From NCBI GenBank assembly GCA_003221515.1, contig QHSI01000062.1:1-32966 (forward strand): DNA of 32,966 nt, read 5' to 3'. The DNA comes from Candidatus Rokuibacteriota bacterium. Lineage in GTDB: Bacteria; Methylomirabilota; Methylomirabilia; Rokubacteriales; CSP1-6. The position numbers and the translations under genes are program-made. The number at the start of each line of letters is the position of its first letter. The stretch's first letter is position 1. The notes beneath the pieces were generated by a model. That model did no database searches and was not told where the DNA came from. It saw only the letters and a program-made list of their open reading frames with translations. Shown here piece after piece: positions 3,727-32,495 of the stretch.

Positions 3727-6700
3727 ATGATGCGCTGGATCGTCGGGTCCAGCTTGAAGTTCCGGTTCCTGGTGGTCGCCGTCGCGGCGGCGCTGATGTA
3801 CTTCGGCATGGAGCGCATTCGCTCCATGCCGGTGGACGTCTTCCCCGAGTTCGCGCCGCCCTTGGTGGAGATCCAGACCGAAGGCATCGGCATGACGGCG
3901 GCCGAAGTGGAGGACCTGATCACCCTGCCCCTGGAGGAGCTGCTCAGGGGGACGCCGGAACTGGATATCCTGCGCTCCAAGTCGGTCACCGGCCTGTCGG
4001 CGATCCGCCTCATCTTCAAGATGGGGACCGACCAGTTGCATGCCCGGCAGCTGGTGCAAGAGCGCCTCGCGCTGGCGGCTCATACCCTGCCGCTCTCGGC
4101 CGGCGCGCCGATCATGCTCCAGCCTCTGTCAGCGACCAGTCGCACCATGAAGATCGGGATCACCTCGAAAGAGCACGACCTGATCGATCTCTCGATGACA
4201 GCCTACTGGACGATCAAGTTCCGCTTGATGCAGGTGCCGGGTGTCGCCAACGTGCCGATCTGGGGCGAGCGAATCAAGCTGCTGGCAGTGCTGGTGGACC
4301 CGGAGTTGTTGCGCGTGTACGACCTGACGCTCAACGATGTCGAGAAGGCGGTCAGTGAAGCCCTGGAGTTCTCGGCCCTGCCCTATTCAAAGCACGCCAA
4401 GCTGCAGACCGAGGGGTTCATCGATACTCCCAACCAACGGCTCGCCCTCCGCTACGTCCTGCCCGTCTTCGAGGCGCAGGATCTGGCCAAGATTCCCCTG
4501 GAGGGTCACGACGGCAAGCCCGTGCTCCTGGGGCAGGTGGCCGAGGTGAAGTGGGACACCTGGCCGATGATCGGGGACGCGGTCATCAACGGCGGTCCGG
4601 GCCTGATGATGATCGTCGAGAAGCTGCCCTGGGCCAACACCCTGGACGTGACGCGAGGCGTTGACGCAGCGCTGGCGGCGTTGAAGCCCGGTCTTCCCGG
4701 GATCGAGATCGACGCCCACATCTTTCGGCCCGCGACCTTCATCGAGCTGGCGCTCCACAATCTCACGACCGCCCTGCTGATCGGGTGCCTGCTCGTGATC
4801 GTGGTGCTCGGCGCATTTCTCGTCGAGTGGCGGGCCGCGCTGATCAGCGTGGTGGCCATCCCGTTGTCGCTGACCGCCGGAGCCCTCGTGCTCTATGCGC
4901 GCGGCGCCACCATCAACACCATGGTCCTGGCCGGGTTCGTGATCGCCGTTGGGGTCGTCGTCGACGACGCCATCATCGACATCGAAAACATCGTGCGGCG
5001 ACTGCGCCAGCATCGCCGGGAGGGGAGCACGAGATCGACGGCGAGCGTCATTCTCGAGGCCTCGCTCGAGGTGCGCAGCGCAATCGTCTACGCCACGCTG
5101 ATCGATGCCGTGACCCTGGTCCCGGTCTTCCTCATGGAGGGTCTCTCCGGCGCCTTCTTCAGGCCCCTGGCCCTCTCCTACGCGCTGGCGGTGCTGGCCT
5201 CAATGGTGGTCGCCTTGACCGTCACCCCGGCCCTCGGACTGCTCCTCCTGTCCAAGTCGGCTGTCGAGCACCGCGAGTCCCCGATCGCCCGGTGGCTGCA
5301 ACGGAAGTACGAGGGGTTGCTCGCCCGGATCATTCGCACTCCGCGCCCGGCGTATGTCACCGTCGTCGTCATCGTGCTCGCCGGCGCCGTGGTCTATCCT
5401 TGGCTCGGGCAGTCCCTGCTCCCGAGCTTCAAGGAGCGAGACTTCCTGATGCACTGGGTGACCACTCCCGGCACCTCGCATCCGGAGATGGTCCGGATCA
5501 CGGAAAAGGCGTGTCGTGAGCTGATCTCCATTCCCGGAGTCCGCAACTGCGGCGCCCACGTTGGCCGCGCCATCACCGGTGACGAGCCCTACGGCGTCAA
5601 CTTCACCGAGAACTGGATCAGCATCGACCCCAAGGTGGACTACGACAAGACGCTCGCCAAGATTCAGGCGCTCGTCGACGGCTACCCCGGGCTCTATCGC
5701 GACGTCCAGACGTATCTCAAGGAGCGCATCAAGGAAGTCCTGACGGGCGGCAAGCAGGCCATCGTGGTGCGCACCTATGGCTCTGATCTGGAGGTCCTTC
5801 GCCAGACGGCCGCCGAGGTGGAGCACGCCCTGACCGGAATCCCCGGGCTCGTGGATCTTAAGATGGAGGCTCACCGGCCCGTACCTCAGGTGGGAGTGAA
5901 GGTGGACCTCGCGGCCGCCCATCACTTCGGGCTCAAGCCCGGCGACATCCGTCGGGCGGCGGCGACCATCGTGTCCGGCATCGAGGTCACCGACATCCAC
6001 CGGGACGGCAAGGTGTACGACGTGTGGGTGTGGAGCAAGCCCAAGGCGCGCCAAAGTGTGACCAGCATCAAGGAGCTCTTGATCGACACGCCGAAGGACT
6101 TTGTTCACGTGCGCCTGGATGAGGTCGCCGACGTGAGCGTCAAGCCGACCCCCGACAGCATCGAGCATGAAGGACTCTCGCGCCGGCACGACGTGGGCGC
6201 CAACGTGCGCGGCCGCGATCTCGGCTCCGTCGTCGCCGACGTCGAGCGTCGGCTCAAGAACGTCAAGTTCCCGCTGGGGTACCGCGCCGAGGTGCTCGGC
6301 GAGTACGCTGAGCGGCAGGCCGCTCAACGGCGCTTGCTGACCTTTTCAGTCGCGGCGGGGATCGGTGTCTTCTTCCTCCTGCTGACGTCCTTCGGGAGCT
6401 GGCGCCTGGCCATGCTGTCCTTCTTGACCCTGCCCTCGGCCCTGGTGGGAGGCGTGCTGGCGGTGTACCTCGCGGACGGCGTCATCTCGCTCGGCTCGCT
6501 CGTCGGGTTCTTCACGATCCTGGGCATCGCCGCCCGCAATGGAATCATGATGATCAATCATTTTCAGCATCTCGAGCGTCACGAAGGCGAGACGTTTGGC
6601 CCCGGGCTCGTCGTGCGGGGAGCCCGCGAACGGCTCTCACCGATTCTCATGACCACGTTGGCCTGCGGTCTGGCGATCGTTCCCCTGGTGATCGCCGGCA

Positions 6701-29831: not shown

Positions 29832-30116
29832 CTAGAAGTATTCGAAGGTGACGGGCTCGCGGGCCATCCGGAGCCGCAGGTCCGCCATGAAGACCAGATA
29901 GGGATGGGCGCCGCGGGCCAGGAGCGTGTCGCGATCGCCCCGGAGCACCGCGGCGGCGTCGTCGTCGCCGAGCCCGAGCTCGCGCATGGCCGCGCGCGCG
30001 TCCTGCAGGAAGCGCGCCCTGAAGTCGTCGTCGGACTTGAGCGCGAACAGACACCGGTTCAGCCGGTACGCGGACGCCGGCGGAAACCGGTAGTGGAGGG
30101 GCTCGGCGGCGCTCAC
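29832..30116 (-). CDS. LigA-like small subunit of extradiol dioxygenase
   Basis: A 94-residue protein resembling the alpha subunit (LigA) of LigAB-type class III ring-cleavage dioxygenases. The helical block ASAYRLNRCLFALKSDDDFRARFLQD and the end AHPYLVFMADLRLRMAREPVTFEYF fit the family, in which this chain closes over the active site of LigB. Start GTG 30116 overlaps the LigB stop (GTGA). A longer ORF starting upstream at 30152 would lie over LigB and is rejected. It is shorter than characterised LigA (about 120-140 residues). Confidence 0.78.
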   Translation of the reverse strand: MSAAEPLHYRFPPASAYRLNRCLFALKSDDDFRARFLQDARAAMRELGLGDDDAAAVLRGDRDTLLARGAHPYLVFMADLRLRMAREPVTFEYF

Positions 30117-30898
30117 AGCGCCCACTCGACGACGGCGTTGCCGTGGTGCCACGACGGCTCGTAGCAGTACACGTCCGCCTTCGCGTCACCGACGGCGCCC
30201 AGGACGACCGCCCAGGTCCGGAGCTCGATGTTGCCCATCTTGTCGAGCTCCTCGCCGGTGACGGCGGCGAGCTCGCGGCCACGTCCCTCTCGTAGCGTGT
30301 CGAGCAGCCGGCGGTCGTACTCGAACTCCGGTGACGCGTACCGGTCGGTTCCCGGGAAGTGGGACATCCCGCCGGAGCACATGAGGACCACGCGCTCGGA
30401 CCGCGCCCGGACAATCGCGCCGAGCGCCGCGCCCCACTCGAAGCAGCGCCGGGGCGTGGGCTGAGGCGGCAGGTACACGTTCACGTGCAGCGGAACGATC
30501 GGGAGCGCGGGCTCCGGCATCGTGAAGTGGAGCGGAACGTAGAAGGCGTAGTCGAGCGGCGCCGATTGCGTGTAGCAGAGATCGAAGCCCCGCTCGACCC
30601 CCTGCTCCACGATCGCTCGCGCCAGGGGCTCGTGGATCGGGAAGCGGTAGCGATAGTGTCCGAACGTTCCGGCGCACTCGGCGCCCACGTACACCGCGAG
30701 CGCCGGGACCGAGTCGAGGAAGAACGCCTCGACGTGATCTCCGGCGACGATCGCGATCGCGTCGGCGCGGAGCGCCTCGAGCCGCCGCTTCACGCGGGCG
30801 AACGCCGCGTGCACGCGCAGCACGAGGTCGCGGTCTTCGGTGCCCGGCCGCGCCAGGAGCTGCGGCGTGTGGGCGCAGGCGAAGGCGCCGACCAGCAT
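30113..30898 (-). CDS. LigB-type extradiol aromatic ring-cleavage dioxygenase
   Basis: Catalytic subunit of a class III extradiol dioxygenase, 261 residues. The Fe(II) ligand candidates are H10 in FACAHTPQL, the His in IVAGDHVEAFF (about 54) and the Glu of CYEPSWHHGNA near the C-terminus; MCSGGMSHFPG (about 172-182) holds the His usually serving as acid-base. The substrate would be a catechol- or protocatechuate-like diol, or an analogue; members of the LigB fold also act on non-aromatic diols. The LigA-like partner follows by GTGA overlap, and the start ATG at 30898 is seven bases from the UGSC gene stop. The cluster also supplies a CoA-transferase, suggesting a ring-cleavage route. Confidence 0.85.
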   Translation of the reverse strand: MLVGAFACAHTPQLLARPGTEDRDLVLRVHAAFARVKRRLEALRADAIAIVAGDHVEAFFLDSVPALAVYVGAECAGTFGHYRYRFPIHEPLARAIVEQGVERGFDLCYTQSAPLDYAFYVPLHFTMPEPALPIVPLHVNVYLPPQPTPRRCFEWGAALGAIVRARSERVVLMCSGGMSHFPGTDRYASPEFEYDRRLLDTLREGRGRELAAVTGEELDKMGNIELRTWAVVLGAVGDAKADVYCYEPSWHHGNAVVEWAL

Positions 30899-30905
30899 CA
30901 GCGTC

Positions 30906-31424
30906 TCACGCGGTCAGTTTCCGCACGATCTCGTCGAAGGCCTTGTCGGCCAGCGCCCGCACTTCCTCGCGCGTCAGCGGCTGGATCGGGTGCGCCACCA
31001 CGACCGCCCGATACTCGGCGGCGCCGAGCGCCTCCGCCTGCGCCCGGGCCGCGCGGGTGAACTCGGATGAAATGACCGTCGCCACCGGAATGCCGTTGTC
31101 CTCGAAGAACACGCCGTCGTGCACACTGCACGTTGTGCAGGACCCTCAGTCGGCGAGCGCCTCGATGAGAACGTCGGTGGCCCCCACGATCTCCTGACGG
31201 AGGCCGTCGGGCGCCGGGCGCGCGAACGTCGGCTTCTTCTTCCGGACGATCGCCGTCGCGTGAGTCCGCTCGCGCAGCAGCTCCTCGATGCGGTCCAGGA
31301 GATGGTTCCCCTTGGCCTTGGAGATGTCGAGCAGCGTGACGACCTTGCCGTCGAGGCTCGTCGGTCGCAGCGCCGTCTTGCGCGGAACGGCGACGGAGTC
31401 GGTGGGGTCGAGGTAGTCGGACAT
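30906..31424 (-). CDS. UGSC-family selenoprotein with in-frame TGA (Sec93)
   Basis: One gene interrupted by a TGA codon at 31146-31148, which I read as selenocysteine. Codons before the TGA (residues 1-92: MSDYLDPTDSVAVP... to ATDVLIEALAD) and after it are in the same frame. The text across it reads ALAD-U-G-S-C-T-T-C-SVHDGVFFEDNG, exactly the U-G-S-C motif that names the UGSC (seleno)protein family. The full product is 172 residues with U93, C96 and C99. The C-terminal half has IPVATVISSEFTRAA and a VAHPIQPLTREEV block. A hairpin at 31118-31132 fits a bacterial SECIS. The function is unknown; the U/C motif suggests redox or thiol chemistry. AAGGAGG lies close before the ATG, and the upstream gene ends nine bases away. 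Confidence 0.85.
31118..31132 (-). promoter_or_regulatory. SECIS-like hairpin after the UGA codon
   Basis: In the mRNA CGUGCA and UGCACG form six perfect pairs around the loop GUG. The loop starts 19 nucleotides after the UGA, inside the 16-37 range of the bacterial SECIS model, and has G as its first base. An alternative hairpin, CUGCAC/GUGCAG (31126-31140), competes with it but places its loop too close to UGA. Confidence 0.6.
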
Positions 31425-31433
31425 GAGGCCTCC

Positions 31434-32495
31434 TTAGCGGGAATGCGACGGTGTGTGGATCGGCCTGAACACGAGCGCCGAGCCCTTGGAGAACGTCCAG
31501 CCCGGCACGATCGCCGAGAATCGACCGGCCAGCCCGCCGGCCACCAGCACCTTGATGTTCTCGGGCGAGCGGAACTTCGGGATCATCGTGGTGTCGCTCG
31601 ACGGGTCGCCGAACTTGGCGAGGACGTGCTCGGGCAGCCCCTCGCCGCCGTCGAGCCCGGGCCGCAGCGCGCGCACCGGCCACCGCAGCCGTTCGTGGAG
31701 CCAGCGGCGCACGTCGGCCTTCTTCCAACCGGCGTCGCCGAAGATCTTTGCGTGCTCCGGCGAGAGCACCAGCAGCGTGTCGCCCCAGTGCGTCATCCGG
31801 TGATGGGAGACGACGGCCATGCTCGCGGCGAGCGTCGGCAACAGGTGATCGGGCGTGCGGCTATGCTGCGCGTAGACGCCGAGCGGCGCGTCGGCGGCCA
31901 GCACCGCGACCACGCTCTGACTCGCCGCGAACCCGTGCTCGACGGCGAGCGACTCCCAGGGGCTCGCCTCCTCGTGCTCGCCGATGCAGTACGTGTAGCG
32001 ACCCGGATGCGCGAGCGTCGACATGCTGACGACGCCGGGCCGGGCGCCACCGAGGTTGACGCAGACGAGCCGCACCGCGCGACCGATCGTCGCGTTGGCG
32101 CGCCAGCCTGGTCCGAACACCCCGGCGCCGGAGTTGATCTCGAGCCGGGCGCGAATCGGCCCGTTCACGATCACGAGCGGCGACGGGGCGTTGGTGGTCG
32201 CGGAGACGCCGTGCAGGTCGAACGCCTCGTCGCAGACGGCGTCGATCGCGGCGATGACGACCGGGAGATATTCGGGCCGGCAGCCCGCCATCACGGCGTT
32301 GATCGCGACCTTCTCGACGGTCGCACGCCCGTAGTTGGGCGGGACCAGCGCGACCAGCTCGTCCCCGGACCGCCCGGACGCGGCGATCGCCCGGTCGACG
32401 CGGGCGCGCGTCGGCGGCACCACCGGCAGGCCGTCGGTTACGCCGCGGGCGTATAGCTCCTCGATTGCGTCGGCGTCCACGTCGGGAACGGACAT
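31434..32495 (-). CDS. Conserved protein of unknown function, upstream of the UGSC gene
   Basis: A 353-residue soluble protein; I recognise the conserved style but no assigned family function. Blocks are GVTDGLPVVPPTRARVD (about 17-33), INAVMAGCRPEYLPVV, ATTNAPSPLVIVNGPI, EINSGAGVFGPGWRANATIGRAVR, HPGRYTYCIGEHEEASPWESL and DTTMIPKFRSPENIKVLVAGG. The pairing with a UGSC gene and the density of conserved Gly/Pro/Asn suggest an enzyme acting with it. The start is at MSVPDVDADAIEELY (ATG 32495). The frame remains open upstream to 32732, but that part translates the palindromic element. It lies first in the minus-strand operon; no clear promoter is seen in the 400 bases upstream. Confidence 0.85.
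   Translation of the reverse strand: MSVPDVDADAIEELYARGVTDGLPVVPPTRARVDRAIAASGRSGDELVALVPPNYGRATVEKVAINAVMAGCRPEYLPVVIAAIDAVCDEAFDLHGVSATTNAPSPLVIVNGPIRARLEINSGAGVFGPGWRANATIGRAVRLVCVNLGGARPGVVSMSTLAHPGRYTYCIGEHEEASPWESLAVEHGFAASQSVVAVLAADAPLGVYAQHSRTPDHLLPTLAASMAVVSHHRMTHWGDTLLVLSPEHAKIFGDAGWKKADVRRWLHERLRWPVRALRPGLDGGEGLPEHVLAKFGDPSSDTTMIPKFRSPENIKVLVAGGLAGRFSAIVPGWTFSKGSALVFRPIHTPSHSR

Follow-up and report, generated by a model that had tools for sequence, protein, structure and literature searches.

Introduction

UGSC family selenoproteins (NF041046; PF24696) are among the commonest selenoproteins of aquatic metagenomes and have no known activity. In the GOS survey of 2008, 255 members with selenocysteine (Sec) and 21 with cysteine were counted, a thioredoxin-like fold was considered likely and a fusion of UGSC with a protein called Unknown_1 was mentioned (PMC2398784). 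Both the UGSC family and the use of Sec in the phylum Methylomirabilota are already published, and a 2026 review cites a Methylomirabilota metagenome-assembled genome (MAG) with 63 predicted selenoprotein genes (PMC13188914).

Two other groups of selenoproteins invite comparison. GrdB and PrdB of the glycine, sarcosine, betaine and proline reductases (PF07355) have in common with UGSC a U-G-x-C motif that follows a beta strand, and the GIP and HP motifs downstream of it are also present in UGSC, which in contrast is devoid of their long N-terminal part. Thioredoxin-like selenoproteins share with UGSC the UxxC redox motif but differ from it in predicted fold.

The window analysed here is a stretch of 32,966 nucleotides from the genome of a soil bacterium of Candidatus Rokuibacteriota, called Methylomirabilota in GTDB naming. 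It carries a UGSC gene that has the U-G-S-C motif, the Sec-TGA and a full-length match to the family, and nothing distinguishes it from other members. The nearest named relatives are Candidatus Rokuibacteriota MAGs with 95% identity. In the literature searched, the partner protein encoded next to UGSC, the thioredoxin domain of this partner, the probable kinship with GrdB and the predicted fold were not found, which is no proof of novelty.

A single reading frame interrupted by one TGA

An earlier note on this DNA had described two frames of the same phase, separated by one TGA and seven codons, that would spell D-U-G-S-C-T-T-C-S-V-H-D if the TGA were read as Sec. Direct reading confirmed it. 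On the minus strand, from the ATG at 31424 to the terminal stop TGA at 30906-30908, a frame of 172 codons is open with the TGA of codon 93 as its sole interruption, and the motif around this codon is DUGSCTTCSVHD. The TGA is followed by GGG TCC TGC ACA ACG TGC AGT (GSCTTCS) and then by a GTG at 31124. Because of these seven codons between TGA and GTG, a standard gene caller yields two fragments of 92 and 72 amino acids, as had been anticipated, and calling with translation table 11 would split the gene in every copy looked at. The Shine-Dalgarno sequence attributed to the N-terminal half was also found (Table 1).

The proposed family membership is borne out by the joined product, which matched PF24696 over residues 4-171 (E=1.8e-50, 171.8 bits for a cut-off of 25) and NF041046 over residues 25-171 (160.2 bits for a cut-off of 125). 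Both profile matches run across the TGA and this codon is a TGA in all of the 80 best homologues; the frame is not a chance one.

Table 1. Coordinates of the features of the UGSC locus in the window.
Feature	Position	Strand	Basis or remark
UGSC family selenoprotein gene, 172 aa, Sec at codon 93	30906..31424	-	Reading of the frame and family profiles
In-frame UGA as selenocysteine	31146..31148	-	TGA in 80/80 best homologues and in the relatives listed for the order; recoding inferred
Shine-Dalgarno AAGGAGG of the UGSC gene	31429..31435	-	4 nt upstream of the ATG; overlaps the end of the upstream gene
Bacterial SECIS-like hairpin	31116..31134	-	Apical GTG loop; covarying stem in the family
Partner protein, 'TDGLPVVPPT' family, 353 aa	31434..32495	-	No Pfam or NCBIfam family; neighbour and fusion pattern with UGSC
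LigB-type (class III) extradiol dioxygenase	30113..30898	-	PF02900, E=8.7e-35; directly downstream of the UGSC gene
LigA-like small subunit, 94 aa	29832..30116	-	PF07746, E=4e-9; overlaps LigB

Conservation of the TGA and the selenocysteine machinery

The 80 best loci, from a scan with one genome per species, belong to Rokubacteria, Binatota, Tectomicrobia, Chloroflexi, Actinomycetota, Acidobacteriota, Deltaproteobacteria and Myxococcota. Within the order, the family is present in all 60 genomes searched and every UGSC relative listed has the TGA at the Sec site. The host genome (5.1 Mb, 95% complete) contains five UGSC genes. In 16 fully searched genomes, the TGA is present in 52 of 54 matches; of the remaining two, one stops short of the site and the other, L177 (G050 contig 71, ~4063-4581), is a divergent fusion of UGSC with its partner in which Met occupies the Sec position and the following Cys is lost. 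L177 is probably an inactive or repurposed paralogue, and it is the one homologue whose aligned residue is neither Cys nor Sec. No Cys-for-Sec homologue was observed among the family members whose match covers the site, all of which have TGA except L177. The statement that UGSC members occur with Sec or with Cys thus holds here for its Sec part, whereas for Cys it depends on the 21 members of the GOS survey, from which Cys forms exist elsewhere. A side finding was the contig of L153, which is labelled as a Bifidobacterium breve MAG and carries a UGSC gene resembling those of aquatic Actinomycetota; this label is probably wrong.

The prediction that the lineage has a Sec system proved right, since selA, selB, selC and a Sec-type selD were all found in the host genome. 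The tRNA-Sec (selC) scores 69.8 bits for a cut-off of 47 with a TCA anticodon and lies in one cluster with selA and selB (C184:8663-13385), while the active site of selD reads CAG-U-ASK. Across the phylum, tRNA-Sec was detected in 79 of 95 genomes, and in 34 of the 37 UGSC carriers tested outside Rokubacteria it was above the cut-off.

Were the TGA a true stop, the locus would encode two short proteins or a decayed gene, a reading in line with the GTG start available to the downstream half and with the behaviour of gene callers. Against it, the TGA followed by GSC-x-x-x-S is kept across phyla, the seven codons joining the two halves belong to the best-conserved part of the family, the hairpin described below is retained and the TGA is present in all five copies of the host genome, which makes a true stop highly improbable. 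A reassigned or generally read-through TGA, for example as Trp, is more improbable still: the gene itself terminates in TGA, the host has tRNA-Sec together with SelA, SelB and SelD, and no Trp was seen at the site in any homologue. It is thus almost certain that the TGA encodes selenocysteine and that the product is a selenoprotein.

A covarying hairpin downstream of the UGA

Every UGSC copy can form a hairpin downstream of the TGA, with a three-base loop that is nearly always GTG and begins 19 nt past the UGA. In the window, the inner six of the eight family pairs form (CGTGCA/GTG/TGCACG) and the apical loop starts 19 nt past the UGA, with G first in the loop. The stem overlaps conserved codons. 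The control consisted of 1000 synonymous recodings of 85 unique sequences at each locus's own codon usage. Mean pairing was 7.34 of 8 against 4.81 in the recodings (SD 0.135, highest 5.20), folding energy was -15.1 kcal/mol against -11.1, and the structure stood far above slid versions of itself. Compensatory changes were observed at four pairs (C-G/G-C/U-A, U-A/G-U/A-U and twice G-C/A-U). Double-sided changes numbered 18 against 3.2 in column shuffles and covariation reached 0.257 against 0.084, figures that are strong and yet, because the sequences compared are related, do not represent independent counts or probabilities. An Rfam search of the locus gave no SECIS match. Judged from the sequence comparisons, this covarying hairpin supports the Sec reading further.

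A partner protein encoded next to UGSC

The gene directly upstream encodes a protein with no match in Pfam or NCBIfam. Of the 76 loci that allowed a test, 69 encode a relative of it no more than 400 nt from UGSC. The start and stop codons of the two genes often overlap. In several Rokubacteria the two proteins are even fused, UGSC part first, for instance at L057:9175-10770 (532 aa), at L068:5969-7600 and in the C164 copy of the host genome. The Unknown_1 of the published fusion is not equated here with this partner. Many polar residues of the partner core are invariant.

In addition, 26 partners from Chloroflexi, Actinomycetota, Deltaproteobacteria and other groups bear an N-terminal domain with a CxxC motif (CPTC, CETC, CATC, CDTC), for which an AhpC/TSA match above the cut-off was obtained in two of those tested. 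This thioredoxin domain is missing from the partners of Rokubacteria, including the one in the window. The adjacency of the partner and the possession of its own thioredoxin in some lineages suggest a two-part selenium enzyme, and from these genomic patterns UGSC and its partner probably constitute an obligate two-component enzyme.

The predicted model of the partner has a pLDDT of 87.1. Its sequence had no match in the PDB and its fold none at E<=0.001; fumarate hydratase, the best match, was rejected as a fold relative with a TM below 0.35. At several loci (L126, L134, L149-L152, L168), two partner genes, one with and one without the thioredoxin domain, accompany a single UGSC gene, possibly as a heteromeric version.

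Predicted fold of UGSC

The AlphaFold2 model of UGSC (pLDDT 93.7, pTM 0.89) displays a Rossmann-like alternation of alpha and beta elements. In this model, Sec93 follows strand 85-91 and is placed at the beginning of helix 94-109, with Cys96 one turn further on, as in a UxxC motif. Foldseek comparison to the PDB retrieved azoreductases and other flavodoxin-like or nucleotide-binding domains with TM of about 0.5 or less, no thioredoxin was among the 50 structure matches listed, and a sequence search of the PDB gave no match. UGSC is therefore predicted to be a Rossmann/flavodoxin-like and not a thioredoxin-like domain, in disagreement with the fold proposed in 2008.

This model bears on another view of the family, in which UGSC would be a general thiol oxidoreductase or peroxidase with a thioredoxin-like fold and the partner a mere neighbour. 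UxxC is indeed a redox motif, the GOS paper gives the thioredoxin-like fold as likely (PMC2398784), and the extra thioredoxin domain of some partners points to dithiol chemistry. Nevertheless, the model is confidently Rossmann/flavodoxin-like and thioredoxins are absent from its listed matches, while the partner is conserved, fused to UGSC and endowed with an enzyme-like core of invariant polar residues. We consider a general thiol oxidoreductase unlikely.

Probable kinship with the Sec domain of GrdB and PrdB

In a profile-profile comparison by hhalign with the GrdB-like Sec proteins of the host genome and with short PF07355 Sec proteins, UGSC reached a probability of 90.8%, over 83 columns only and with one of 200 block-shuffled controls attaining the score. 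The alignment placed Sec on Sec and HP on HP. The score was 51.4, for a maximum of 27.4 in column-shuffled controls; an unrelated control gave 0.7%, and unrelated and reversed controls all remained below 1%. The value depended on the set of sequences used, being 20-27% with seven near-identical GrdB sequences and rising to the 91% given above with the more diverse set. No direct match of UGSC to PF07355 was obtained at E<=0.01. The Pfam GRDB model PF07355 stops directly before the Sec codon (seen at L055:13704-15011), so that neither the model nor the annotations built on it include the catalytic Sec domain. On these alignments, we consider a relationship between UGSC and the GrdB/PrdB Sec domain probable but not proven. 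The partner of UGSC had no match to PF09338, the family of the pyruvoyl-forming subunit of the reductases.

Genes of the GrdB type were also observed in the host genome itself, where GrdE-like (PF09338) and GrdB-like (PF07355) genes are found at L055:12442-15011 (C107), L180:4569-7112 (C101) and L181:5995-8709 (C94). In the GrdB-like genes of all three contigs, the Sec position is occupied by an in-frame TGA, and PF09338 was confirmed by Pfam on C107. One of these sets is near another UGSC operon. In other Methylomirabilota (L080, L082, L083, L085, L086), short PF07355 relatives of ~265 aa with an in-frame TGA were found, and they may represent a further family of GrdB-type Sec proteins that stand alone.

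Proposed mechanism

By established bacterial Sec biology, SelB and Sec-tRNA-Sec would read the UGA with the aid of the downstream hairpin to produce the 172-aa protein. UGSC and its partner would then act as one enzyme, in which the Sec of UGSC may attack or reduce a substrate held together with the conserved polar residues of the partner. Redox chemistry would be carried out by the Sec93/Cys96 pair, and the resulting Sec-Cys would be re-reduced by a dithiol that, in Chloroflexi, Actinomycetota and Deltaproteobacteria, could be supplied by the partner's own thioredoxin domain. UGSC would thereby play a role like that of the Sec domain of GrdB/PrdB, minus the pyruvoyl subunit.

A Sec-dependent two-component reductase made of UGSC and its partner and recharged by a dithiol is overall the best explanation of the locus and one that we regard as reasonably likely. 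The assignment of GrdB-like Sec reductase chemistry to UGSC is an analogy and is more tentative. The same reserve applies to the wider proposal of an undescribed two-component selenoenzyme, in which UGSC, as a free-standing protein, would descend from the GrdB/PrdB Sec domain or be a cousin of it, working with a different, non-pyruvoyl substrate subunit, recharged by the thioredoxin fused to this subunit and serving catabolism in soil and water bacteria rather than amino-acid fermentation; we put it forward as a speculative possibility. Cultured carriers exist in Pseudonocardia lacus and P. bannensis DSM 45300, and together with the partner and its thioredoxin domain, the fusions and the probable kinship with GrdB they make the function of UGSC testable.

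Genomic neighbourhood

LigA and LigB genes follow UGSC in the window and in near relatives, and LigB possibly belongs to the same operon. In Pseudonocardia bannensis, UGSC and its partner are included in a meta-cleavage cluster with a VanA-type Rieske oxygenase, a tautomerase, two FAA-hydrolase-family (hydratase-like) proteins and two catechol-2,3-dioxygenase-like proteins. Apart from the partner, the neighbours of UGSC are heterogeneous and the other loci do not share these surroundings. As neighbours vary so widely, the link to aromatic catabolism rests on two contexts, which give a hint, from gene order, that UGSC and its partner may take part in aromatic breakdown. The LigA-like protein of the window also scored 33.4 bits, just under the cut-off of 34, for an NHLP-related RiPP precursor family.
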